DNA of 51,971 nucleotides, from the IMG/VR virus record IMGVR_UViG_3300047483_000126, positions 1-51,971 of that record; one strand, given 5' to 3'. Below are positions 8,101 through 51,971 of this stretch, in pieces. Below the pieces are notes generated by a model. It was given only the letters and a program-made list of their open reading frames with translations. It was not told where the DNA came from and searched no databases. The position numbers and the translations under genes were made by a program. Positions within the stretch are counted from its first letter, which is position 1; each line of letters opens with the position of its first letter. This DNA comes from a virus.

Positions 8101-10924
8101 TTGAAGGTGCTTGTTCAATAGGCTTACCCTCTGTTGTAGTGGTAGTTTGTCCAGACTCTCCTGTAGTCTCTGGAGCTGTTGCTGCTTGTCTTGCGGCGTC
8201 ATCTGCTGCGGCTGCAAGCTGGTCTCTTGTTGCATCATTGAATAGTTTTTTTATTTTATATTTAGCATCAATTAACATCGCGCGCGTACCTTTAATTACA
8301 CGCGTTTGCCCTTTGTCGTTATCTAATTTAATAGACACAGCATTCCCCTCTTCGTCGTAAGTAATTGCCTTGAAAGGGTTCTGGCTCTTGTTAGTAAATT
8401 TCTTTCCATCAATGGTTACAGAGAAATCATCTCCAATCTCCATCTCTTGCGGAATGATATCAAACTCATCAATAGACTTGTTACCAATATCATTAATATT
8501 CCCAAACTCATAAACGCGGTTAGGGCTTTCAAACACAACTACACCATTACGTTGCTTGTATATCTCGCCTGTCTCACCCCTATATGTAAATGGAATCAAT
8601 TCATCCACTGCATCGCGCATAGTTCTACCTGTGATTTTTTCTTCTTCAGGTTGTTCTATAACAGGCTGTGTTGCAACTGGCTCAGTAGCTTGAGTTGGCT
8701 CAACTTGAGCTTCAGTAGTTGGAGCCACAGGAGTTTCTCTCTCCGCATCTTCTAAGGATAAATTTTCATCGCTCGCGCTTACTCTATCCTGTAATCCTGA
8801 TAGCTTTAATGACTGACCATTAGGAGAGATTTCCAAAACTTTTGCAGATTTATTACCATAGAATACAGTATCTCCCTCGTTAAAAGCAAATATGTTGGCA
8901 TAACCTCTTCTTAATGTCTCTGCATCAGCTACATTTCCATCTACAATGTTCTTAGATATCTCTTTAGCATAGTTAATTACACGAAGACCTTTATTGAAAG
9001 ACTTCTTGTTTGCCTCAAACTTAGCCTTAAAGTTAAGTTGCTGTGCTGGGTCTTGATTGACATTCCCTCCTTGTTGACCAATTCTTTCTAGGTCTTCAAT
9101 AGATACGAGTCTACTGTTGTCTGTTAAGGATTGTACAGCAAATAATGGGTTGTTCATAGCTTCCTGAACAGCCATTTGATTATCGTTATATGCCTTTACA
9201 ATAGAGTTAGGGATATTTCCTTGGATAGCTTTTTCTCCGTTCTCATTTTCAATAACAGATACATAGTTTCTGAAAGGCTCAGGAACATCTTTAGCTTGCT
9301 CGAAAGACATCGGAGAGACTTCGTCGTTGTCAACGTCATTCTTAATTTGGTCTTCTGTAGGCAACTCAAGCGGAGTCATAATCTCAGCTAGATTGCGAGC
9401 TATCTTAGCTGACTCCTGTGGAATAATACGTTCGGTATTGTCGTATAATAAGTATCTTGAATAAGAGTTTATATCTGAGTTTTGCTCAAACTTAGAAACG
9501 TTGCTCGCTATCTTATCAACATTCTTTAATGCATTGTTATAGGAATTGTTATCTAACTTACCGTTAGAGTTAGCCTTAGTTAACCCTGTTTTAATTGTTT
9601 CAACAGACTTAGCTAACGCCTCTTTACCTTGGGAGTCATAAGCGTTCTGTAGTGTAGAATAAATAGATGGATTAAATGACTGAGAGTCAACAAACATTCC
9701 TCCCATTTGACCTGTTAAACCGCCATAAAACGAAGCATCTAATGCGCCAAGTAATGTCTTAGATTTAAATGATGGAGAAAGCTCCGCCTTGCCTGTCTCG
9801 GGATTAAATGTATTAAATACCCCTTCTTCGTCTTTAGCGTCATACAACTCCAACTTAGCGTTAGGGTTGTCCTCTTTACGCTTTCTTTCGTAGTAATCAA
9901 ATAAATCCTGCTCAGCGCCATCAATATATGTTTGTGCAAATTCTTCGGCTGCTTCAGGAAGAAATCCTTTAACAAAACCTTGCTTTAAGTTCTCAAGTGA
10001 GAATGACTTAGCGTACTTCTTTGCAACCTCCTGGAATGCTTCTTTAGATATTAGTGCGCCGCTAATATCCTTAATAGCTTCTTTTGATAAAGTCTTGCCA
10101 AGACCTTTTGATATTAGCTTGTCAACACCTATATTTTTTTCAATTACAGTTTCAACCAATGCGCCTACTGCAGACTCATTAAAAGCTTTGTCATCTGAAA
10201 ATCCTTTAGCCTTAGCCTCCTCGTATCTTGATTCTAGGTTTTTAGAGTATAATGCCATTCCTCCAATTCCAGGAATAGCACCAACAACCATCTGGGTTAT
10301 ACCATCTGCAAGTTGATAGCCAATATTTTCGGCATCGCCATTAGTTACATACCCTTTGCCAACTAATTCCGTTATACTTGATGTACCCTTTGCTAGTTTT
10401 TGTTTTTCGTATGTAATTAGTTGGTCAGCCCCTTTTAATGCATTCTTTTCAGATAAACGAGATATTTCCTCCATCTGCTTACCTGCTTTTTCACCACCAA
10501 CTGCTTCTGCAATTAATGACATAGAAGGTGCGCCACTATGAGTCATAGCAGACTTAGAGGCACTTCTAAGAAATCCTTTTGCAGTAATAGGGACTAAGTC
10601 AATTAAATTCTTGGCTACACCAATAGTGCCACTATATAGATTCTCGTACCAAGCGTCGTCGTTGTGAGCACCATCCGTAGAATTTTCTGCCCCAGATAAT
10701 TCCGTATCGACTTTTTTTTTAAATAAATTAATATCAGACTTGCTCAATCCAGAAATATCAACTGGAACTACGCTATCCCCAAATTGAAGTCCAAATCCAT
10801 TACCTTTTTTACTTTCGATTAACTGGTTAGTATCAAAAGAAACAGGCGTGACCATATTTGTCTCTTCGTCCAATATTCCGTATCCATTTCCACGAGAACT
10901 TTTTATTAATCTATTCTTAGCCAT
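2132..10924 (-). CDS. Giant polyvalent virion/ejected protein with zincin domain
   Basis: 2930 aa, the largest gene in the window. N-terminal ~80 residues hold two related GNG(Y/F)G repeats; hydrophobic, probably membrane-active helices lie near 93-125 and 205-240. Disordered linkers occur near 730-760 (Pro/Thr/Glu) and 900-940 (Ala/Thr). A zinc-metallopeptidase site is visible: H1033-E1034-G-T-H1037, with E1090 and E1094 in DELVAEL as likely third ligand, the same arrangement as in ArdC-like enzymes. A conserved-looking block at about 1761-1780 (DPQWVQVGMNPFRHSFFYD) and another at about 2311-2331 (NPFFWIGNIPMDLQQQ) resemble modules of phage large polyvalent proteins. Its place directly after two ejection-type genes suggests a capsid cargo protein injected with the DNA. 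That role is inferred. Confidence 0.75.
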   Translation of the reverse strand: MAKNRLIKSSRGNGYGILDEETNMVTPVSFDTNQLIESKKGNGFGLQFGDSVVPVDISGLSKSDINLFKKKVDTELSGAENSTDGAHNDDAWYENLYSGTIGVAKNLIDLVPITAKGFLRSASKSAMTHSGAPSMSLIAEAVGGEKAGKQMEEISRLSEKNALKGADQLITYEKQKLAKGTSSITELVGKGYVTNGDAENIGYQLADGITQMVVGAIPGIGGMALYSKNLESRYEEAKAKGFSDDKAFNESAVGALVETVIEKNIGVDKLISKGLGKTLSKEAIKDISGALISKEAFQEVAKKYAKSFSLENLKQGFVKGFLPEAAEEFAQTYIDGAEQDLFDYYERKRKEDNPNAKLELYDAKDEEGVFNTFNPETGKAELSPSFKSKTLLGALDASFYGGLTGQMGGMFVDSQSFNPSIYSTLQNAYDSQGKEALAKSVETIKTGLTKANSNGKLDNNSYNNALKNVDKIASNVSKFEQNSDINSYSRYLLYDNTERIIPQESAKIARNLAEIMTPLELPTEDQIKNDVDNDEVSPMSFEQAKDVPEPFRNYVSVIENENGEKAIQGNIPNSIVKAYNDNQMAVQEAMNNPLFAVQSLTDNSRLVSIEDLERIGQQGGNVNQDPAQQLNFKAKFEANKKSFNKGLRVINYAKEISKNIVDGNVADAETLRRGYANIFAFNEGDTVFYGNKSAKVLEISPNGQSLKLSGLQDRVSASDENLSLEDAERETPVAPTTEAQVEPTQATEPVATQPVIEQPEEEKITGRTMRDAVDELIPFTYRGETGEIYKQRNGVVVFESPNRVYEFGNINDIGNKSIDEFDIIPQEMEIGDDFSVTIDGKKFTNKSQNPFKAITYDEEGNAVSIKLDNDKGQTRVIKGTRAMLIDAKYKIKKLFNDATRDQLAAAADDAARQAATAPETTGESGQTTTTTEGKPIEQAPSIAQQEYDRRVKEIRAKLAEQESEQATQNRQAVANLAASLYTAGINVEILDSNAIRAKYDKEASQGMFLNNKGVIVINESVLPTEWGKTIIFHEGTHPIINIIRNTEPKLYKQLVAAAKEEAKTNPEVNKILQQIRNTKAYGDEFTRNDELVAELIARVSSGKLDLNQVKPSFKQSVIDFINKIAKAIGLNPILKDSDQVALTKLATQISDVLNAGKDISEIVGSSNVSKFAVASDINTESENSAIYGGGIQQSEIERAKVTDKPVVNVYKEEGVSDLPIRSLKDIYDSYGGKVVFINSDPTKVGNLKLISGKEIFLYGGPEYMSLTKNIEGNVGFATTLESKVKTHDKLRNKVFGEGKGVTIVATQSPDSIMSNSYSLRYILDAITQLPKNITSDPAFKKEFFGEDIKALQLAFGTEAYDAFVKKFKNTDFSSTESIGVMIDELGYKLSSASTPASFKARKALTNNLVAGFVTKSSRVDTKNEKGFVSVSPKKFIAKSLYDEFGVNAESIIKQIGNKDIVDKFFNEGIWGLAVSGFETSPESNYVSIQDKGVAHPLFNAKFYGENPFKLDAAYKVDDLILPIESGESKSGKVYLDKFGNPKPYEKKTSLQLAASIYVGGDIEAQLSDIDRTYSPETTVAEAGMTMQEREDWKKKNKVSQRQVRNPLVQEAAKNLLDGNITLDGYVDVVRSNQPIKPFLQVPKLPTLKDVISALDNGKLGRGGIVGVNRSFNDGDKVATRLDIPAYEDYDTWVVSIHDQLKEGKVLAYGQTAVLKNVQFKTSAKGGIGIAIKNDKNTIARMFGEWANESPESVHKRAEQLINDPQWVQVGMNPFRHSFFYDKSTGEALLGADEVIQVGSLVLAKNVERAPFGSQAFVDNFSFKNNAGETIQFSDISRDDKRIQFVRENLKNYSKSEIVDALMGAPFNLTKEKAEDIVAQASYDPLAPSLPTDNPDLSIPEGSKLNQKSKVVDEYNEGYDKEKKGLLTKAAGFWAEKMKYIALQYDSRFFARRKLDVASTEESLAKARLRTLNGVAYAAGQELSKHYNDIFGNGLEAEGERALNSMIFNLRILQIDKNTEQKYQDEIEKLTLDFSKENRRLPSAIEARSIAMQARKNVPVKMHGKTKNGIPATSQTAQSFLDGLRAELGESEYNMLRARAELFRKVNNAQVIKLRDAGLISKEVADTYKDDFYAYRKTLERLYGEQDSSVIMLNGVTSIKGWSSLSKEGAENYLEQDARLLLAESFIGTARAIAKNKLREAIFDENIKVDENGREQSIIDKEGRKVEFIKPAKYLRDKNGDIRSNGKELSVADADEGFVNVPYKKDGIVNYFQMEKEMFNQIEGNNIKWKDKSAYYDTTDYANRILTGFATRNNPFFWIGNIPMDLQQQVFFTDIWTQGSPIKSNVYVAGARAIARTIKFANLFGRNTELVDNLLAEYIAAGGAMDRMSTMKEQRQRTIELSLYEGEKNSKGQWIKSKFKAFNSKMNEGTEIAMRLAAYDQAKNNLINKFNEDNNGANPSSSDMLKIQEIAAAQSRAYTDFAQRGTDVPNLNIAYLNSAIQASGVALEYISDNPAKFANKASQLVIGKFLGTLAIMALMGDAYDELDEYRKDLYSFMFSFDTKMKDDKGNPIFVTADIKNNPQLIPLLGVSREAAEMSMRYLRGDKQKDYTVGGTIDRTIELLNHALFGIVPNVTSIEDLKKSGAQILAKHTLANIAIKGFMGFDAFRNRDIEKAKDADVSPYMRGQDDKSIPYFYKAIAMSMANNTSENQVSPAKLQAMAETLITSPSTTPWVGLAYSLLSDVANLIVPAKSQAQKGEYSVSESGGKLLKSLTKKFATYTDAEKAEIRSNDVLYKMSREESLRFNDTERKIDTQLKDLYKADPKNFFTNVDKMAKEEGYWENDLIMSRIDARAKNIDNAEYDRAFIKSDIANEVKILFHTKGVEGKANLLKYMFEKDATKARQVIDGLIDYGMSTKEAYDTEDLYLKSIK

Positions 10925-10944
10925 ATTATGGGTTTTGTATTATA

Positions 10945-12453
10945 TTAAAATTCGTTTACTGGAATTGCCCCACCAGGTGAAGGAAGTTTTGTATTAGAAG
11001 GATTTGCTGGCTTAGGAGCCGCACTTATTATATTATTTTGTCTTGTTGGTAAGTTATATAATGTGCCTATAGCCTTTCTTACCATTGCTTTTTGTTTAGA
11101 AGGAATTCCAGCGCCAACATTTATTTCCTGAGCAAGCTCTGTATTAAATTCTTCTAAGTTAGAAACTTTTCTCCATTTAAACCCTGCTCTTCTGTCGTTT
11201 TTGTCGACATTTGCTGTTATTTGATTTCTTCCGTTTTGCCAAGCCTCAACCCAAGTCCCGCCATTTTCATCTCTAGCGATAGATTTAATTACTCCTTGTT
11301 GACCATTTACATTAAGGCTAATATCTTTGCCAATAGGGTATTTTGTAAGATTAACAGGCTTTCCTGTAGAACTTCCTGGAAATGACACTTTAGTGAAATC
11401 CTTAAAAGGGTCATATAACATCTCTACCTCTTCTTGCTGAGCCTTTGCATTTGTGTAAGCTGCCTGAGCCCAACTTGCTGCGGCAGATGCTGCTTTTGCA
11501 TTTAAGTCAGCTTTTTGTTCTTTTTCTGCATATTTAGCTTTAACTCCAAGAATATCCGCTTGAGCTTCTTCTGTTTCAATTGCTGAAGCAGATTTAACCT
11601 GTTGTGATTTAGCTAACATTGGAACTTTAGTAGTATAATATTCTACCAACTGCTTATCTGTTAGGTTTTCTCCGTAAAAATTAGCTTGACGCCGCATTGC
11701 TGCCAATACCTCTGGGTTAGATGCTTTTATTTGAGCTACAGTTTGGTCAGCATAATCGACCGTAGAAGTTGTGCCATCAGCATTCTTAATTGTAACTGGA
11801 GCAGGAGGGAATACATTGCCTTCTGCGTCTGAAGTCCAACCTACAGGTAATTCTCCTTGCACTCTAACTAAATTGCCTTTGCTATCTTTAACATCTTTAG
11901 AAAAGGGTTTATAAGGATTAGCTGACGTAAATGCTTTAATGTACATTTTAGTAGCATCCAAGCTCTTGGTATAAGTATCAGCTAAAGCAGCTTGTAAGTC
12001 ACGAGGATTCTTAATCAAGTTCTCGTCAGACATCTTTGCAGACAATTCCTTATAGAATGTCTCAAAGCTTGTTAAGTTCTCCTTGTTAGCTAAACCCATC
12101 TGAAGCATTCTTTCATACTCCTTAGCCCCTAAATCATATCCTGTCTTAAGGTCTTTAATATCAGACACAGCTTGACGAATTTCGCCCATCTTACTGTAGT
12201 CAAGTTTACCGTTAGATAAGATAGCAGAACTTGCGTGACCTAACAGGGCATTAGCTTTAGATGTAATGCTTTTTTGACCATAAATATTGAGGTCTTTCTT
12301 AAGCGCTTCTATATTTGCAAAAGCATTCTCAGCAAGAGCATAATCTCTTTGCTGTTGCTGAATCACTTGCGCAAATATGTTTCCCATTGCAGAACCTGTC
12401 TGCTGGAAATCCTCCTTAATACTTTCCGCTGGGTTATAAACGAATCCTGCCAT
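10945..12453 (-). CDS. Probable internal virion/ejection protein, 502 aa
   Basis: 502 aa, mainly helical in the first 180 residues (MAGFVYNPAESIKEDFQQTG…), an Ala/Gln/Glu-rich coiled-coil stretch at about 285-345, and a small beta-rich domain near 365-430. No signal peptide. It is placed between the 328-aa Ala/Gln-rich protein and the giant polyvalent protein, the order expected for a set of proteins packed inside a podovirus capsid and ejected at infection. I do not recognise a named family. Confidence 0.65.
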   Translation of the reverse strand: MAGFVYNPAESIKEDFQQTGSAMGNIFAQVIQQQQRDYALAENAFANIEALKKDLNIYGQKSITSKANALLGHASSAILSNGKLDYSKMGEIRQAVSDIKDLKTGYDLGAKEYERMLQMGLANKENLTSFETFYKELSAKMSDENLIKNPRDLQAALADTYTKSLDATKMYIKAFTSANPYKPFSKDVKDSKGNLVRVQGELPVGWTSDAEGNVFPPAPVTIKNADGTTSTVDYADQTVAQIKASNPEVLAAMRRQANFYGENLTDKQLVEYYTTKVPMLAKSQQVKSASAIETEEAQADILGVKAKYAEKEQKADLNAKAASAAASWAQAAYTNAKAQQEEVEMLYDPFKDFTKVSFPGSSTGKPVNLTKYPIGKDISLNVNGQQGVIKSIARDENGGTWVEAWQNGRNQITANVDKNDRRAGFKWRKVSNLEEFNTELAQEINVGAGIPSKQKAMVRKAIGTLYNLPTRQNNIISAAPKPANPSNTKLPSPGGAIPVNEF

Positions 12454-12455
12454 AA

Positions 12456-13442
12456 TTAATTACCAGTTGAGAACCATTGTTTATTGATTGGGTCCCAAGA
12501 ATTTTGAGAATCAAAAGATTGTTGTGCTGTCATTGTAGGTGTACCCATTTTAAATCCACCTAAAGATGGGAATGAAATGTTTTGCCCTGTAGCCCCTGTC
12601 AATGGATTACCTAATAAAGCTGAAACTGCTGGATTACTCTTAATAGATTGGTCAGCATTTATTTTATACAGACTTGTTAAGTTTTGCATCTGTCTAGCCT
12701 GATTACCCATTTGCATCATACCTGAACCAATACCAGATGCAATGCCTCCAATACCAGACCAGATTGCGCTCTTCGCTTCTTGTAATGCGGCTGCCTTAGC
12801 TTGTTCTCCTTCAAATAAACTTTGATTAAGATTCATCTCTCCCTCAAGTTTATTCTGAGTAATTCCCATAATGTTAGCTTGTTTGTTAGCTAATGATTGG
12901 AATTCTAAACCTCTCTCTCTGGCAGATGCTGCAGCTGTCTGACCTAATGCTGCAAATTGCTGCTGTTGTGCCATATTCTGTAAAGCCATTTGCTCTTGAG
13001 CAGAACGCGCACTAATAGTATTTTGTGCTTGATTTTCTCCTTGTTGAGCTAATAATGCTGCAGTCATAATATCAGTACCGCTACCAGCTCCACGTTGTGC
13101 GGCAGCTAATGCGTTAGCAGATGTTTGCGCTGCTTGGTCTCTAGCAATTTGCTCTCCAGCTCCACGCGATTGACCTGACGCCATACGCTTAGCTAAATCA
13201 GCTTGTTGCTCTACTTTTGTATAACGAGAAATATCTCCTTGGTAAGTTGCTGCTCCTTTTGCTTGAGAAAGTAAATCTCCGTAGCCAGCATTGAATGCAC
13301 TTCTTTGTTGCCCCGCATAAGTACGCTGAGCCTCAAGTTGTCTTTCAGCTTCGCTTTTCTTACCAAATGCTCCTACAAGACCAATTAATCCGCCTGCTGC
13401 ACTTGCAGCCATTCCCCAGGGAGTTAATTTAGTTAAATCCAT
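12456..13442 (-). CDS. Ala/Gln-rich internal virion (ejection) protein
   Basis: 328 aa. A glycine/alanine hydrophobic segment at 9-27 (TPWGMAASAAGGLIGLVGAFG) is followed by about 180 residues of Ala/Gln-rich helix (KQANIMG, AQQQQFAALGQ), then a second Gly-rich hydrophobic patch near 230-245. This composition, one membrane-insertable patch plus long coiled coil, resembles the T7 gp14-type internal virion protein and similar proteins directly downstream of tail-hub genes in podoviruses. Stop and next start nearly touch (2 bases). Assignment is by composition and position, not by a diagnostic motif. Confidence 0.65.
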   Translation of the reverse strand: MDLTKLTPWGMAASAAGGLIGLVGAFGKKSEAERQLEAQRTYAGQQRSAFNAGYGDLLSQAKGAATYQGDISRYTKVEQQADLAKRMASGQSRGAGEQIARDQAAQTSANALAAAQRGAGSGTDIMTAALLAQQGENQAQNTISARSAQEQMALQNMAQQQQFAALGQTAAASARERGLEFQSLANKQANIMGITQNKLEGEMNLNQSLFEGEQAKAAALQEAKSAIWSGIGGIASGIGSGMMQMGNQARQMQNLTSLYKINADQSIKSNPAVSALLGNPLTGATGQNISFPSLGGFKMGTPTMTAQQSFDSQNSWDPINKQWFSTGN

Positions 13443-44483: not shown

Positions 44484-45128
44484 CTAGTGTTTAGAGCATA
44501 AAATATCGCTTTGCCGCACGGTATAGTACTCTTTTCCTTCGATGGTGTTCTTAAAGTTTGAGTTCTTATTTAACATAACAAGTGCACCTTGACTAACTTT
44601 TAACTCATCTTGACCTACTAATGGTTTCCCAATGTAAGACAGTCGAGCAAACTTAGTTGACGGCTTTTTATTTAGACCAATTACTAGCCCCGAAGCAGAT
44701 GTTATAGCTTCTACTTTTTGACCACCAACATCAACCGAGTCAAACTCTTCCTCAACCACCTGTTCACAAAGAGTCCAGTTCCCAACAGGTAATATATTGC
44801 CACCCCTAACAATACAAAACACCCAATAATAAGGTACTTTATAATAGTTCCCGTAGATACAGTTTGTTTCATCGGATGTAGTTAAGTAATGAAAATATAT
44901 AAGGTCACCTACTTGCACATTTTTCTCCATCTCTAAGCCGTCTTCAGTATAAACCCTTCCTTCTGGAACAGCTATTACTCGACCATAGATTCTAGCGTAG
45001 TGTGTAGGATTGAATTCTGGGTCTATGTGGAGCTTTAAATTACCGTATTGGACAGTATCATCCAAAGCAGCACCGACTTCAACCACGACCGTATTTGGTG
45101 GCGATTTTTTAATATCGTAAGTAAGCAT
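44484..45128 (-). CDS. GroES-like (gp31-type) co-chaperonin candidate, 214 aa
   Basis: 214 aa from the ATG at 45128, which sits 9 bases after AACCAAACA; an in-frame ATG at 45185 is unlikely because the extra 19 codons are promoter-like. Two halves each read like a GroES barrel: 'GRVIAVPEGRVYTEDGLEMEKNVQVGDLIYFHYL…GNYYKVPYYWVFCIVR' and 'ARLSYIGKPLVGQDELKVSQGALVMLNKNSNF…GKEYYTVRQSDIL' (compare the 'VGD.v.F…. G.eY.v..sdIL' end of GroES). Phages such as T4 carry a GroES replacement to fold their coat protein. First gene of the late strand, so it may serve virion protein folding. Family call tentative. Confidence 0.5.
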   Translation of the reverse strand: MLTYDIKKSPPNTVVVEVGAALDDTVQYGNLKLHIDPEFNPTHYARIYGRVIAVPEGRVYTEDGLEMEKNVQVGDLIYFHYLTTSDETNCIYGNYYKVPYYWVFCIVRGGNILPVGNWTLCEQVVEEEFDSVDVGGQKVEAITSASGLVIGLNKKPSTKFARLSYIGKPLVGQDELKVSQGALVMLNKNSNFKNTIEGKEYYTVRQSDILCSKH

Positions 45129-45137
45129 TAAAATGTT

Positions 45138-45156
45138 TGTTTGGTTTGTAAAGGTA
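45138..45156 (-). promoter_or_regulatory. -7-like TACCTTTA plus AACCAAACA leader
   Basis: Minus strand: TACCTTTA (156-149), 2 bases, AACCAAACA (146-138), 9 bases, ATG at 45128. The TTG nearest to -33 is 26 bp away, so spacing is long. Confidence 0.5.
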
Positions 45157-45185
45157 AAGATAGATAGATAGTCACATATATCCAA

Positions 45186-45879: not shown

Positions 45880-46198
45880 GCAAACGGGGAAAAAGTTCTC
45901 CAACGGCTTCCACCCCGACACATACGGGGGGTAACAGGTGTGCCTACTCGAAAGAGTCCACCTTAGTGGCTAACCCCCACTCGGAAAGGCGAAAGGTTAC
46001 CCACGAGGATGGTGGATTCCTGAGTATAAAGGTTTGAAGTTTCAGAAGAACGGGTTACTAAATAAACCTATCGCCGAACACACGGCGTCAACAAAGTCCC
46101 ACACATACAAGGGTTATGTATACGATTAGACAATGGCTTGCATATTTATATGAGTGGTTCGATTCCGCTACTAATCGCTAACTTAAAAACACACTATT
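45880..46198 (+). ncRNA. ~320-nt structured leader RNA of the early operon
   Basis: Non-coding stretch between the promoter and the first gene. Visible helices: GGGGGT/ACCCCC (45927-45932, 45973-45978) enclosing AGGTG/CACCT (45936-45940, 45959-45963) and ACTC-GAAA-GAGT (45946-45957, GNRA loop); CGCCG/CGGCG (46072-46076, 46083-46087); AGGTTT/AAACCT (46030-46035, 46064-46069); ACATA/TATGT (46103-46107, 46115-46119); and a 3' tRNA-like element. Alternatives exist: CCCCG/CGGGG (45913-45917, 45925-45929) and GGGTAAC/GTTACCC (45929-45935, 45996-46002) exclude the first helix, so a switch is possible. No known RNA family recognised. Confidence 0.6.
46123..46177 (+). ncRNA. tRNA-like T-arm plus acceptor stem, D and anticodon arms absent
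   Basis: T-arm with canonical loop: AGTGG-TTCGATT-CCGCT (46153-46169), matching T54 T55 C56 R57 A58 and C61. Acceptor: GATTAG at 46124-46129 pairs with CTAATC at 46171-46176, one mismatch at position 7, with C123-G177 as an extra pair; the 3' end continues CTA rather than CCA. Only about 22 bases lie between the acceptor and the T stem (46131-46152), too few for D and anticodon arms, so this is not a normal tRNA. It could be a tRNA mimic or decay remnant. Confidence 0.55.
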
Positions 46199-46432
46199 AT
46201 GAAATTTGTATCAAACTATCTTGTAGGCGGAATTGTTCACGCAAAAACAAAATGCGACGCGCTTGTAACTATTGCAAAACTATATGATTACCCTGATTAT
46301 AAGATTTATTGGGAAGGGAATACGCCTTATATGCTACCATTTGCTCAATCTCGTAGAGTATTTAAGGTATATGCATCACATTCTAAAATGGGAAAGGCTT
46401 TAAATGCTGAACGCAAAAGATATGGAGTGTAA
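46199..46432 (+). CDS. Unknown 77-aa early protein
   Basis: 77 aa, basic C-terminus (SHSKMGKALNAERKRYGV). No membrane helix or known motif. It is the first gene after the structured leader. Its last two codons (GTG TAA) are the 5' strand of stem I of the hammerhead ribozyme, so coding and ribozyme sequence share bases. Confidence 0.7.
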   Translation: MKFVSNYLVGGIVHAKTKCDALVTIAKLYDYPDYKIYWEGNTPYMLPFAQSRRVFKVYASHSKMGKALNAERKRYGV

Positions 46433-46475
46433 CTGACGAGTCCTAATGGACGAAACGCCTACGGGCGTCTTACAC
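46427..46475 (+). ncRNA. Type I hammerhead ribozyme
   Basis: All conserved parts are present in order. Stem I GTGTAA/TTACAC (46427-46432, 46470-46475); CTGACGA (46433-46439); stem II GTCC/GGAC (46440-46443, 46448-46451) with loop TAAT; GAA (46452-46454); stem III ACGCC/GGCGT (46455-46459, 46464-46468) capped by UACG, a cUNCGg tetraloop; A15.1-U16.1 pair; cleavage base C at 46469. Stem I is the open one, hence type I. Upstream/downstream AAAG/CTTT and GG/CC pairing may extend stem I (46416-46425 with 46479-46484). Predicted cut: between 46469 and 46470. Confidence 0.92.
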
Positions 46476-46513: not shown

Positions 46514-46930
46514 ATGAGAATGTTATTTAATCAAGCAATCGAAATCACAAAAGAACAAGCTATTAACCACTCAAGAAATGAGTACAATCCAAGAGAATGG
46601 AAGTGTATAGTAGAAAGATTTAGTGAGAGATTTGAAGACGCAATCTTTTACGACCTTGGCTTAGGGAGGTACAATCAAGATGAAGTTGGCGTAGTGTATG
46701 TTACTAACGGAGTTCGCTACTTTAAAACACTTCAGTATTCGTCTTGCCTAAGCGCATACGATGGCATAGGACAAATAAATTTATATGAGGATGGAATTAG
46801 CTTTACAAAGTTTATTGATGACAACGGGAACGAGGGCTACCTTTCTGCTAGAAACCCCGTAACGGCTAACTTCTTACGAGTTATGACTTTAAGAACAAAA
46901 GACTTTATTGTAGCATCTGCAAGCATTTAA
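46514..46930 (+). CDS. Unknown 138-aa early protein
   Basis: 138 aa, mixed alpha/beta, no export signal (FNQAIEITKEQAINHSRNEYNPREWKCIVERFSERFEDAIFYD…). ATG lies 44 bases after the hammerhead cleavage site, so its message would carry a 5'-OH leader if the ribozyme acts. Family unknown. Confidence 0.7.
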   Translation: MRMLFNQAIEITKEQAINHSRNEYNPREWKCIVERFSERFEDAIFYDLGLGRYNQDEVGVVYVTNGVRYFKTLQYSSCLSAYDGIGQINLYEDGISFTKFIDDNGNEGYLSARNPVTANFLRVMTLRTKDFIVASASI

Positions 46931-47372: not shown

Positions 47373-48290
47373 ATGGCAACTCAATCAGAATTAATCGACA
47401 ATATCAATAACACAATCATCGAAGGACTACAAGCTAAGGGTTTACAATGGTTCAAACCTTTCAAAGATAGCTCTACCAATCAATGGTCTGCTATCAACTC
47501 ACAAGGTAAGCCTTACCGCGGTATTAATCAGTTCATCCTTTCAGCTAAGGCAATCGAAAAGGGATGGATTAACAAGTGGTTCACCTTCGCGCAAGTATCT
47601 AAGCTAGGCGGACGTGTTAACAAGGGCGAGAAGTCTACGGATGTCTACCTTTGGAAAGTAAACTTCGCGGTAGAAATCGCAGGTAAAACCCAATACTTCG
47701 CCCGCCTTGAGGACGTTCCAAGTCACCTACAAAAGCAAGCCAAGAAGGCGTTCTTCTTGCAGGTGTTCAAGGTGTTCTCTATCTCACAAAGCGACCTACC
47801 AATCGATACCCCATCACAACCTATTGAGGTCACTGAATTAGAGGCAGACGCGCACGCCGAAGCTATCCTTCAATCGTGGTGCAAAGAGGTAACGCTTAAG
47901 CATAGCGGACAAGGTCGGGCTTACTACTCTCCTAGCGGTGACTACATTCATATGCCCGCTAAGACTACTGAGCAATGGAAATCAAACGGAGACTACTACA
48001 AGGTATTCTTTCACGAAGCTATCCACTCCACGGGTCACGCGTCACGCCTTAATCGCCTAGACAAAACAGCAAACTTTGGCTCTGATGAGTATAGTAAGGA
48101 GGAATTGGTCGCTGAGTTAGGCGCGCTGTATTTAGAGGCTATCACGGGCATACAAACAATCGTAGACGACGTCAAAAACTCGCAAGCATATATCAACGGA
48201 TGGATTAGCAAATTGAAGTCTGACCCTAAGTTAATTCTGAGTGCATCTACTAAGGCACACGAGGCGGTAGAGTTAATCCTATCTAAATAA
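47373..48290 (+). CDS. ArdC-like antirestriction protein with zincin domain
   Basis: 305 aa. Residues 1-135 resemble the ArdC N-terminal ssDNA-binding domain (LIDNINNTIIEGLQAKGLQWFKPF..., SAINSQGKPYRGINQFIL, FTFAQVSKLGGRVNKGEKSTDVYLWK). Residues 160-305 are a metallopeptidase-type domain: H214-E-A-I-H218-STGH..RLNR and EELVAELGALYLEA with E244/E248 as likely third ligand. ArdC of plasmids protects incoming DNA from type I and II restriction. Early expression from the phage's first rightward operon fits a defence role. The largest gene of the operon. Confidence 0.88.
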   Translation: MATQSELIDNINNTIIEGLQAKGLQWFKPFKDSSTNQWSAINSQGKPYRGINQFILSAKAIEKGWINKWFTFAQVSKLGGRVNKGEKSTDVYLWKVNFAVEIAGKTQYFARLEDVPSHLQKQAKKAFFLQVFKVFSISQSDLPIDTPSQPIEVTELEADAHAEAILQSWCKEVTLKHSGQGRAYYSPSGDYIHMPAKTTEQWKSNGDYYKVFFHEAIHSTGHASRLNRLDKTANFGSDEYSKEELVAELGALYLEAITGIQTIVDDVKNSQAYINGWISKLKSDPKLILSASTKAHEAVELILSK

Positions 48291-48300
48291 CATCTTGACC

Positions 48301-48323
48301 TTGCGGTGTATAGGTAACCGCAA
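48301..48323 (+). promoter_or_regulatory. 7-bp hairpin upstream of the 86-aa gene
   Basis: TTGCGGT/ACCGCAA (48301-48307, 48317-48323), 9-nt loop, seven bases before the ATG at 48331. No U-tract, so a translation or mRNA-stability element rather than a terminator. Confidence 0.5.
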
Positions 48324-50797: not shown

Positions 50798-51157
50798 ATG
50801 GAAAACGAATTTGTAAGCTACGAGCAAGCAGTAGCATTGAAAGAATTAGGGTTTGATGAAAGATGTTTGGGATGGTATTCTTCATTTGATAAATTATTAG
50901 AAATAGGTAATGTACGTCATAGCTTTTATACACTTGCTCCAATAAAACAACAAGCATTTAGATGGTTTAGGGAGAAAGGATATTCATTCAATATTATGGC
51001 AGATAATGCTATTTTAAATAGTAATTATTTCTACGATATATGGTATAATACTAAGTTTATGATTGAAACAGACTATGATTATTCTACCTACGAAGAAGCA
51101 GAAAATGCTTGTATTGATAAGTTAATCGAATTAAGTAAACAATTAAATAATGCCTGA
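50798..51157 (+). CDS. Unknown 119-aa early protein, paralogue of the edge gene
   Basis: 119 aa. Starts MENEFVSYEQAVALKELGFDERCLGWYSS; the rest is helical with TLAPIKQQAFRWFREKGYSFNIMAD and a Cys near the end. The 'QAVALKELGFDE.C.GWYS' start and 'PIKQQAFRWFREKGY' look like a repeat family common in Bacteroidota phages, for which I know no function. A second copy begins at 51845. Confidence 0.7.
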   Translation: MENEFVSYEQAVALKELGFDERCLGWYSSFDKLLEIGNVRHSFYTLAPIKQQAFRWFREKGYSFNIMADNAILNSNYFYDIWYNTKFMIETDYDYSTYEEAENACIDKLIELSKQLNNA

Positions 51158-51844: not shown

Positions 51845-51971
51845 ATGGAAAAAGAATTTGTAACATACGAGCAAGCATTAGCCTTAAAGGAATTAGGTTT
51901 TGATGATGAATGCTGTGGATATTATTCTGATAATATTCTTTATATCTATGAAATTGAAAATAAAAATCTTT
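51845..51971 (+). CDS. Partial gene, second copy of the 119-aa family
   Basis: Cut by the window edge; 42 codons visible. Starts MEKEFVTYEQALALKELGFDDECCGYYS, matching MENEFVSYEQAVALKELGFDERCLGWYS of the gene at 50798. Placed directly after the terminator, so it would be made only on read-through or from a further start. Confidence 0.75.
   Translation, partial: MEKEFVTYEQALALKELGFDDECCGYYSDNILYIYEIENKNL

Follow-up and report, generated by a model that had tools for sequence, protein, structure and literature searches.

Hammerhead ribozymes in prophages were described in 2011 by Perreault et al., who proposed that they process long phage RNAs; tandem prophage hammerheads cleave in vitro, and one set also does so in E. 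coli (PMC3088659). The hammerhead of the haloviruses HF1/HF2 is located 13 nt before the start of an early gene, and the 5′ end of the transcript falls within 3 nt of its cut site (PMC3088659). Contacts between loop II and stem I speed hammerheads at low magnesium (PMC3088659). What hammerheads do in bacteria and phages is called an open question in a review of the field (PMC6155905).

The DNA analysed here (the window) is the whole of IMG/VR virus record IMGVR_UViG_3300047483_000126, 51,971 bases in length. Its leftward strand encodes large genes, including the terminase large subunit, the portal and an SU10-like capsid protein, and its rightward strand encodes small genes, the first of which are found at ~46.2 kb; judging from layout and gene content, the latter are presumed to form an early operon. 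At the first gene boundary of this operon lies a type I hammerhead ribozyme, which in our reading of the sequence probably acts in cis as a self-cleaving punctuation mark between genes. An earlier note on this DNA had placed the ribozyme between two early phage genes, a location that our analysis supports: both neighbours are codirectional and lie on the early side. Two further features of the window were recorded. On the leftward strand, a 233-aa ORF with a TTG start (44484-45185) has a C-terminal Cpn10 co-chaperonin domain (Pfam PF00166), and in the rightward operon two small paralogues share a duplicated gene start (50798-50881 and 51845-51928, 81% identity over 84 nt).

The hammerhead of the window and its phage relatives

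When the entire window was searched with all Rfam families, the sole match was to Hammerhead_1 (RF00163), which aligned over its whole length with 36.4 bits (E 1.5e-5), above the gathering score of 34. The complete type I hammerhead that the earlier note had recognized from the sequence alone, and had asked to see checked against the Rfam hammerhead models, thus scores as one, with each base it named in place: the conserved core comprises CUGACGA (46433-46439; C3 U4 G5 A6 N7 G8 A9), GAA (46452-46454; G12 A13 A14), the A15.1-U16.1 pair (A46455-U46468) and H17. The three helices of 6, 4 and 5 bp and the UACG cap are present as described. Stem I pairs GUGUAA with UUACAC and is open-ended, as for a type I hammerhead; stem II pairs GUCC (46440-46443) with GGAC (46448-46451) around a UAAU loop, and stem III pairs ACGCC (46455-46459) with GGCGU (46464-46468) beneath the cap. 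C17 is C46469, and the cut is predicted between C46469 and U46470, 44 nt 5′ of the ATG at 46514, in agreement with the positions first proposed. The overlap of stem I with the end of the 77-aa gene, likewise part of the original description, is borne out by the sequence and is kept in both nearest relatives (Table 1).

Table 1. Features of the window and of related phage contigs
Feature	Position	Strand	Evidence
Mini tRNA-like element: 7-bp acceptor, 5-bp T stem, UUCGAUU T loop, 23-nt GG linker	46123..46177	+	Descriptor scan; counterparts in relatives
77-aa ORF, first gene of the rightward operon	46199..46432	+	87% identity in L002
A flanking stem I on its 5′ side; putative tertiary contact with U46444 (loop II first base)	46426	+	Covariation, 28 members
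Type I hammerhead ribozyme	46427..46475	+	Rfam RF00163; R1 model; conserved in L002, L023, L149
Stem I 5′ strand GUGUAA: final sense codon (GTG) and TAA stop that close the 77-aa ORF	46427..46432	+	Sequence; GTG TAA likewise in L002, L023
Stem I 3′ strand UUACAC, with which the downstream RNA would begin once cut	46470..46475	+	Covarying pairs, 28 phage hammerheads
A flanking stem I on its 3′ side; putative tertiary pair with U46447 (loop II last base)	46476	+	Covariation
Hairpin CCUUUCCGUGUAGGUUAACGG between predicted cut and start codon	46480..46500	+	Recurs before ATGs (window 48299, L002, L023, L149); closing pairs vary
138-aa ORF 3′ of the predicted cut	46514..46930	+	51% identity in L023, behind the same ribozyme
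ArdC-like protein (ArdcN and MPTase-PolyVal domains)	47373..48290	+	Pfam PF08401 and PF18818 above cut-offs
Mini tRNA-like elements at gene boundaries or operon leader end	L146:3737-3778; L151:2878-2921; L154:2634-2678, 2930-2971; L149:2609-2661		Several overlap a stop codon

As an isolated 66-nt RNA, the region is predicted to fold exactly into the hammerhead (−18.6 kcal/mol, z −2.1), and stem I retains a pairing probability of 0.80-0.88 with flanks of up to 100 nt. With flanks of 150 nt or more this drops to 0.11, and in the minimum-energy model the 5′ strand of stem I instead pairs with 46330-46334 within the 77-aa gene. This alternative pairing calls for caution and is no refutation, because such models omit tertiary contacts, co-transcriptional folding and ribosomes.

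Phage hammerheads at large were sampled with two pattern scans of viral contigs and a structural descriptor, which gave at least 183 type I matches in at least ~140 loci (1.23 Mb), compared with 4 in 3.69 Mb of a Markov control; at least 154 of the matches listed are unique by sequence, related sequences having been de-duplicated only when identical. Nearly all hammerheads of the relatives score below the Rfam gathering cut-off, and a count based on Rfam alone is too insensitive; we therefore built a new covariance model, R1, from 28 aligned phage hammerheads. The window scores 69 bits with R1 (E ~1e-17) and is itself one of the 28 training sequences. In this alignment, standard pairs occupy 99.2% of pair cells (71.1% when shuffled) and the covariation score is 0.683 (0.152 when shuffled). 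All stems covary, 13 of 17 pairs vary on both sides, and shifting the partner by one to three columns reduces pairing to 28-39%.

Covariation extends to two further pairs that were not imposed by the search. In 27 of the 28 members, the last base of loop II can pair with the base directly 3′ of stem I (U-A 18, A-U 6, G-C 3, unpaired 1), and in 25 the first base of loop II can pair with the base 5′ of stem I (A-U in 23, another standard pair in 2, none in the remaining 3); in a larger set, the mutual information between the last loop II base and the 3′ flank lies 15 and 24 SD above shuffles. The window carries the consensus bases for both, U46444-A46426 and U46447-A46476. The covarying pair suggests a tertiary contact between loop II and the flank of stem I, of the sort that fast hammerheads make between loop II and stem I.

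R1 finds matches in 43 of 50 whole contigs that were reached via hammerhead patterns. The window has a single hammerhead, a relative, L149, has two in a row, and other phages have up to nine per contig. The earlier note knew of hammerheads in some phages and prophages and of no described function in a Bacteroidota phage operon; the ribozyme is not exceptional, as hammerheads at gene boundaries are common in phages. Long same-strand arrays of five to nine ribozymes each were seen in L026 (contig G018:4447-8719), L031, L049 and L123. Matches in genome contigs come from Cryomorphaceae and Lutibacter bins and also from Burkholderiales, Deinococcales and Aliivibrio bins; one Aliivibrio MAG contig (L307) has four hammerhead pattern matches in 5.8 kb.

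Relatives with and without the ribozyme

A DNA similarity search of named phages with the ribozyme region gave no match, and the 77-aa protein matched neither Pfam nor PHROG. In viral contigs the 77-aa protein has a single relative, in L002, and a search with the 138-aa protein gave no match, a 51% relative being found later in L023. A wider set of relatives was collected with the conserved 305-aa ArdC-like protein as query; L149 is one of them. In L002, the 77-aa homologue ends in the same GTG TAA and is followed by a hammerhead in which stem II GUCC/GGAC has become GUCU/AGAC; L002 is without the 138-aa gene and has a 62-aa gene directly after the hammerhead. A third phage, L023, with an ArdC gene that is 89% identical, has a hammerhead in which stem III ACGCC/GGCGU has become ACCCC/GGGGU. 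Here the ribozyme ends a 93-aa gene that gives no BLASTP alignment with the 77-aa protein, followed by the relative of the 138-aa gene.

In both phages the differences from the window's ribozyme are confined to loops, N7 or compensated pairs (C-G to U-A in stem II of L002, G-C to C-G in stem III of L023), and the ribozyme is intact although identity between the neighbouring proteins has dropped to 87% and 51%. The compensatory changes that the earlier note had suggested looking for in related phages thus exist, and loss of the core beside conserved flanking genes, which it had named as a possible refutation, was not seen: the ribozyme is kept with the 77-aa gene in L002 and with the 138-aa gene in L023. 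Its statement that ribozyme and gene are locked together must be given up, since the gene that this ribozyme ends in L023 is an unrelated one.

Five relatives (L144, L146, L147, L151, L154) have no hammerhead anywhere on their contigs, and upstream of ArdC they encode neither the 77-aa nor the 138-aa gene. As the ribozyme is absent where both small genes are absent, it accompanies an exchangeable block of small genes. Its single copy in the window and the existence of close relatives without any also mean that the hammerhead is not essential for the rightward operon.

The 138-aa protein has a distant relative in 60 records of elemo-group Flavobacterium phages. Both records examined, elemoE_6-9C and elemoA_15-9B, have a type I hammerhead in the same rightward operon, between rightward genes, scoring 47.5 and 44.8 bits with R1 (L140:5797-5854). 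A UAG stop lies five bases ahead of the core, and stem II is GACU/AGUC in one isolate and GGUU/AACC in the other, amounting to two compensatory changes. The elemo relatives point, indirectly, to a likely Bacteroidota host for the phage of the window; since cultured elemo phages with such a ribozyme are in GenBank, the hypothesis can be tested without the uncultured phage itself. A separate, type III-like candidate was noted in elemoE ahead of the first rightward gene (L140:4005-4061; 36.3 bits, below the gathering score).

Stop codons, start codons and tRNA-like elements

The placement of the ribozyme was surveyed for 136 hammerheads away from locus ends, with positions shifted by 60-1500 nt as control and with purely mechanical calls of codirectional ORFs of at least 40 codons. 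An ORF end falls within −10 to +5 of the core C in 63% (6% in the shifted control), an ATG-started ORF begins 15-34 nt past the cut in 57% (13%), and both conditions hold together in 41% (0.8%). Only 2 of 154 unique phage hammerheads lie inside long codirectional ORFs. Neither the mechanical ORF calls nor sampling by stem II pattern should be the source of this placement. The commonest stop positions are the UGA within the CUGA core (24 cases), five bases ahead of the core (20) and directly ahead of it (14), the last being the class of the window. The overlap with stop codons could stem from compact genomes, together with the UGA inherent in CUGANGA. The spacing from cut to ATG peaks at 20-29 nt; the 44 nt of the window are off this peak, with an extra hairpin intervening.

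This hairpin recurs as CCUUNCGGUGUA(UA)GGUNAACCG, with varied closing pairs, ~10 nt ahead of start codons. Apart from the copy next to the ribozyme, it is found in the window at 48299-48321, in L002 at 6284 and 7607 and in L023 at 11110, 11470, 13095, 13364, 13723 and 13937, and in this phage group it may be an element of translation or regulation. Refolding of the stem I 3′ strand with the GUGUA of the hairpin after cleavage was considered and dropped: the 3′ products fold as a local hairpin in L023, L002 and L149, and otherwise in the window.

In an alternative reading, the RNA is active and has no role in gene expression, riding on exchangeable gene cassettes or serving as recombination microhomology (GTGTAACTGA). 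The ribozyme does follow variable genes, is missing from close relatives that lack them, and ends unrelated upstream genes with the same stem I sequence. Against this stand the compensatory selection on core, stems and tertiary pair and the narrow range of distances to the following start codon, which a mere passenger would not need; we hold this explanation to be unlikely.

A second kind of RNA element occupies comparable boundaries. It consists of a 7-bp acceptor-like helix stacked on a T stem of 5-6 bp with the canonical T loop UUCGAUU and has a linker of 10-27 nt containing GG; an anticodon arm is absent. The copy in the window ends 21 nt 5′ of the ATG of the 77-aa gene and forms the 3′ end of a structured-looking noncoding leader, which varies in length between ~200 and 450 nt (window ~45880-46122; L002 5760-5950; L023 10380-10815). 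In the window, L002 and L023, this leader was negative in the tRNA/tmRNA test and in Rfam; ARAGORN found no tRNA in the window, L002, L023 or L140, and the tRNA-like element of the window matches no Rfam family. In L146, L151 and L154, which are among the relatives without a ribozyme, such elements are situated at the first-gene boundary, where the window and L002 have the hammerhead, and the TAA stop of the preceding gene overlaps the acceptor strand.

A strict descriptor of the element gave 13 unique matches in 1.56 Mb and 2 in 3.13 Mb of control, three of the former in unrelated loci that carry hammerheads (L025, L038, L121). A pattern scan added the complete element in 9 more contigs, with four copies in L284, although the majority of its 120 matches cannot adopt the structure. 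Neither GG nor the T loop varies among 16 aligned elements, most of which were fetched by a pattern that contains both, the exceptions being L121, L153 and L169. In L284, a GC-rich unrelated phage, the four elements (9300-12700, leftward strand) precede small genes, with a GCUCGGGC hairpin and an SD-like stretch in between.

Spacing to the next gene is similar for the two kinds of element. Where no hairpin intervenes, the tRNA-like element lies 19-22 nt from the ATG (window, L148, L154), as compared with the 20-29 nt peak for the hammerhead cut; with a hairpin, the distances are 47-55 nt (L146, L149, L151, L154) and 42-46 nt, respectively.

RNase P has its classical minimal substrate in a minihelix of this length, so the enzyme may plausibly cut the tRNA-like element. 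The use of tRNA-like elements at the boundaries of ribozyme-less relatives suggests an interchangeable punctuation, self-cutting in one case and presumably dependent on RNase P or RNase Z in the other. As a general proposition we put forward only tentatively, at somewhat less than even odds, that some phages split operon transcripts with two interchangeable stop-codon devices, hammerheads and tRNA-like minihelices that would recruit host RNase P and/or RNase Z, with the next start at ~20-29 nt, or at ~42-55 nt if a hairpin intervenes.

The position of the stop codon also invites a reading in which cleavage is coupled to translation: a ribosome terminating at the UAA would cover stem I and part of the core, so that the RNA would be cut only when the 77-aa gene is unread and would report upstream translation. 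Stops in stem I or at the core UGA are found in many phage hammerheads (offsets 0 and +4 in the survey), as well as in the window, L002 and L023, and the 5′ strand of stem I has its alternative partner within the 77-aa gene. Nevertheless, stops just 5′ of stem I are also common and CUGANGA includes UGA regardless; moreover, tRNA-like elements overlap stops too, which favours compactness or a boundary role over a switch. We judge such coupling to be quite improbable.

Proposed cutting of the transcript and comparison with known systems

Two remaining explanations carry little weight. Type I hammerheads yield unit-length RNAs in eukaryotic repeats and viroid-like RNAs, but a retrozyme or circular RNA is very improbable here and was rejected: the ribozyme sits between two ORFs, it is the only hammerhead in the entire record, and no flanking repeat copy bounds a unit. 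Short as a minimal hammerhead is, a chance match or non-functional relic has a negligible probability, given that 3.7 Mb of Markov control contain 4 matches to the structural descriptor (~0.06 expected per window) and that the ribozyme is conserved in relatives with compensatory changes.

In the punctuation that we favour, the ribozyme would fold once the polymerase has moved past 46475 and would cut after C46469. The upstream RNA, with the leader and the 77-aa gene, would carry the folded ribozyme core and a 2′,3′-cyclic phosphate at its 3′ end, and the downstream RNA would begin with a 5′-OH 44 nt ahead of the 138-aa gene. Neighbouring genes would thereby become separate mRNAs with defined, protected ends, and a protein nuclease would not be needed; at comparable boundaries in related phages, the tRNA-like element would presumably be cut by RNase P and/or RNase Z. 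The sequence itself shows that the ribozyme is there, that it is conserved and covaries, that it sits at gene ends and that tRNA-like elements co-occur with it; cleavage in the cell and its effects on RNA stability or translation, like the processing of the tRNA-like elements, are what we infer. Taken together, the sequences suggest that ribozymes, and sometimes tRNA-like elements in their place, mark the cut points that divide a long viral message into gene messages. The position rule (a stop in or at stem I, a start at a set distance past the cut) and the tRNA-like elements make one hypothesis testable, namely that RNA-encoded devices cut phage operons into messages of one gene each.

With this ribozyme a known family gains a new member, and its phage setting beside small ORFs has been known since 2011; the new parts are the integration of the stop codon and the suggested exchange with tRNA-like elements. 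A literature search found no paper that deals with stop codons within the hammerheads of phages or with mini tRNA-like elements at the boundaries of phage genes, which is weak evidence because its coverage misses most subscription journals.

The hammerhead of the window shares with RF00163 type I the core, the three stems with an open stem I, the probable loop II/stem I-flank contacts and the predicted cut after C17; the phage form is more compact, with a stem I of 6 bp without a closed internal loop and a stem II of 4 bp. The prophage arrays of Perreault et al. likewise comprise hammerheads flanking single small genes in phage operons, and an anti-restriction gene is nearby in both cases, ardA in the arrays and ArdC in the window (PMC3088659). 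An array is defined by several hammerheads in one region, whereas the window has one; its stop codon lies within the ribozyme, a feature that goes unmentioned in the main text of that paper, and related boundaries carry mini tRNA-like elements. The HF1/HF2 hammerhead also lies just 5′ of an early-gene start, with an RNA 5′ end mapped near the cut, but it has a variant architecture, belongs to an archaeal virus and, as far as described, is not part of the stop codon of an upstream gene (PMC3088659).

The theta ribozymes of gut phages are also small and self-cleaving, process phage transcripts and are tied to tRNA structures (PMC10879173). They have an HDV-like fold and trim the 3′ ends of real tRNAs, whereas the present system combines a hammerhead with elements without an anticodon arm, and the window contains no Rfam match to an HDV family and no tRNA gene detected by ARAGORN. 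Finally, the tRNA punctuation of mitochondria offers a functional likeness, in that intergenic RNA elements are cut and mRNAs are thereby released; here, by contrast, one device is itself a ribozyme, and a reduced tRNA-like helix with putative processing serves as the other.
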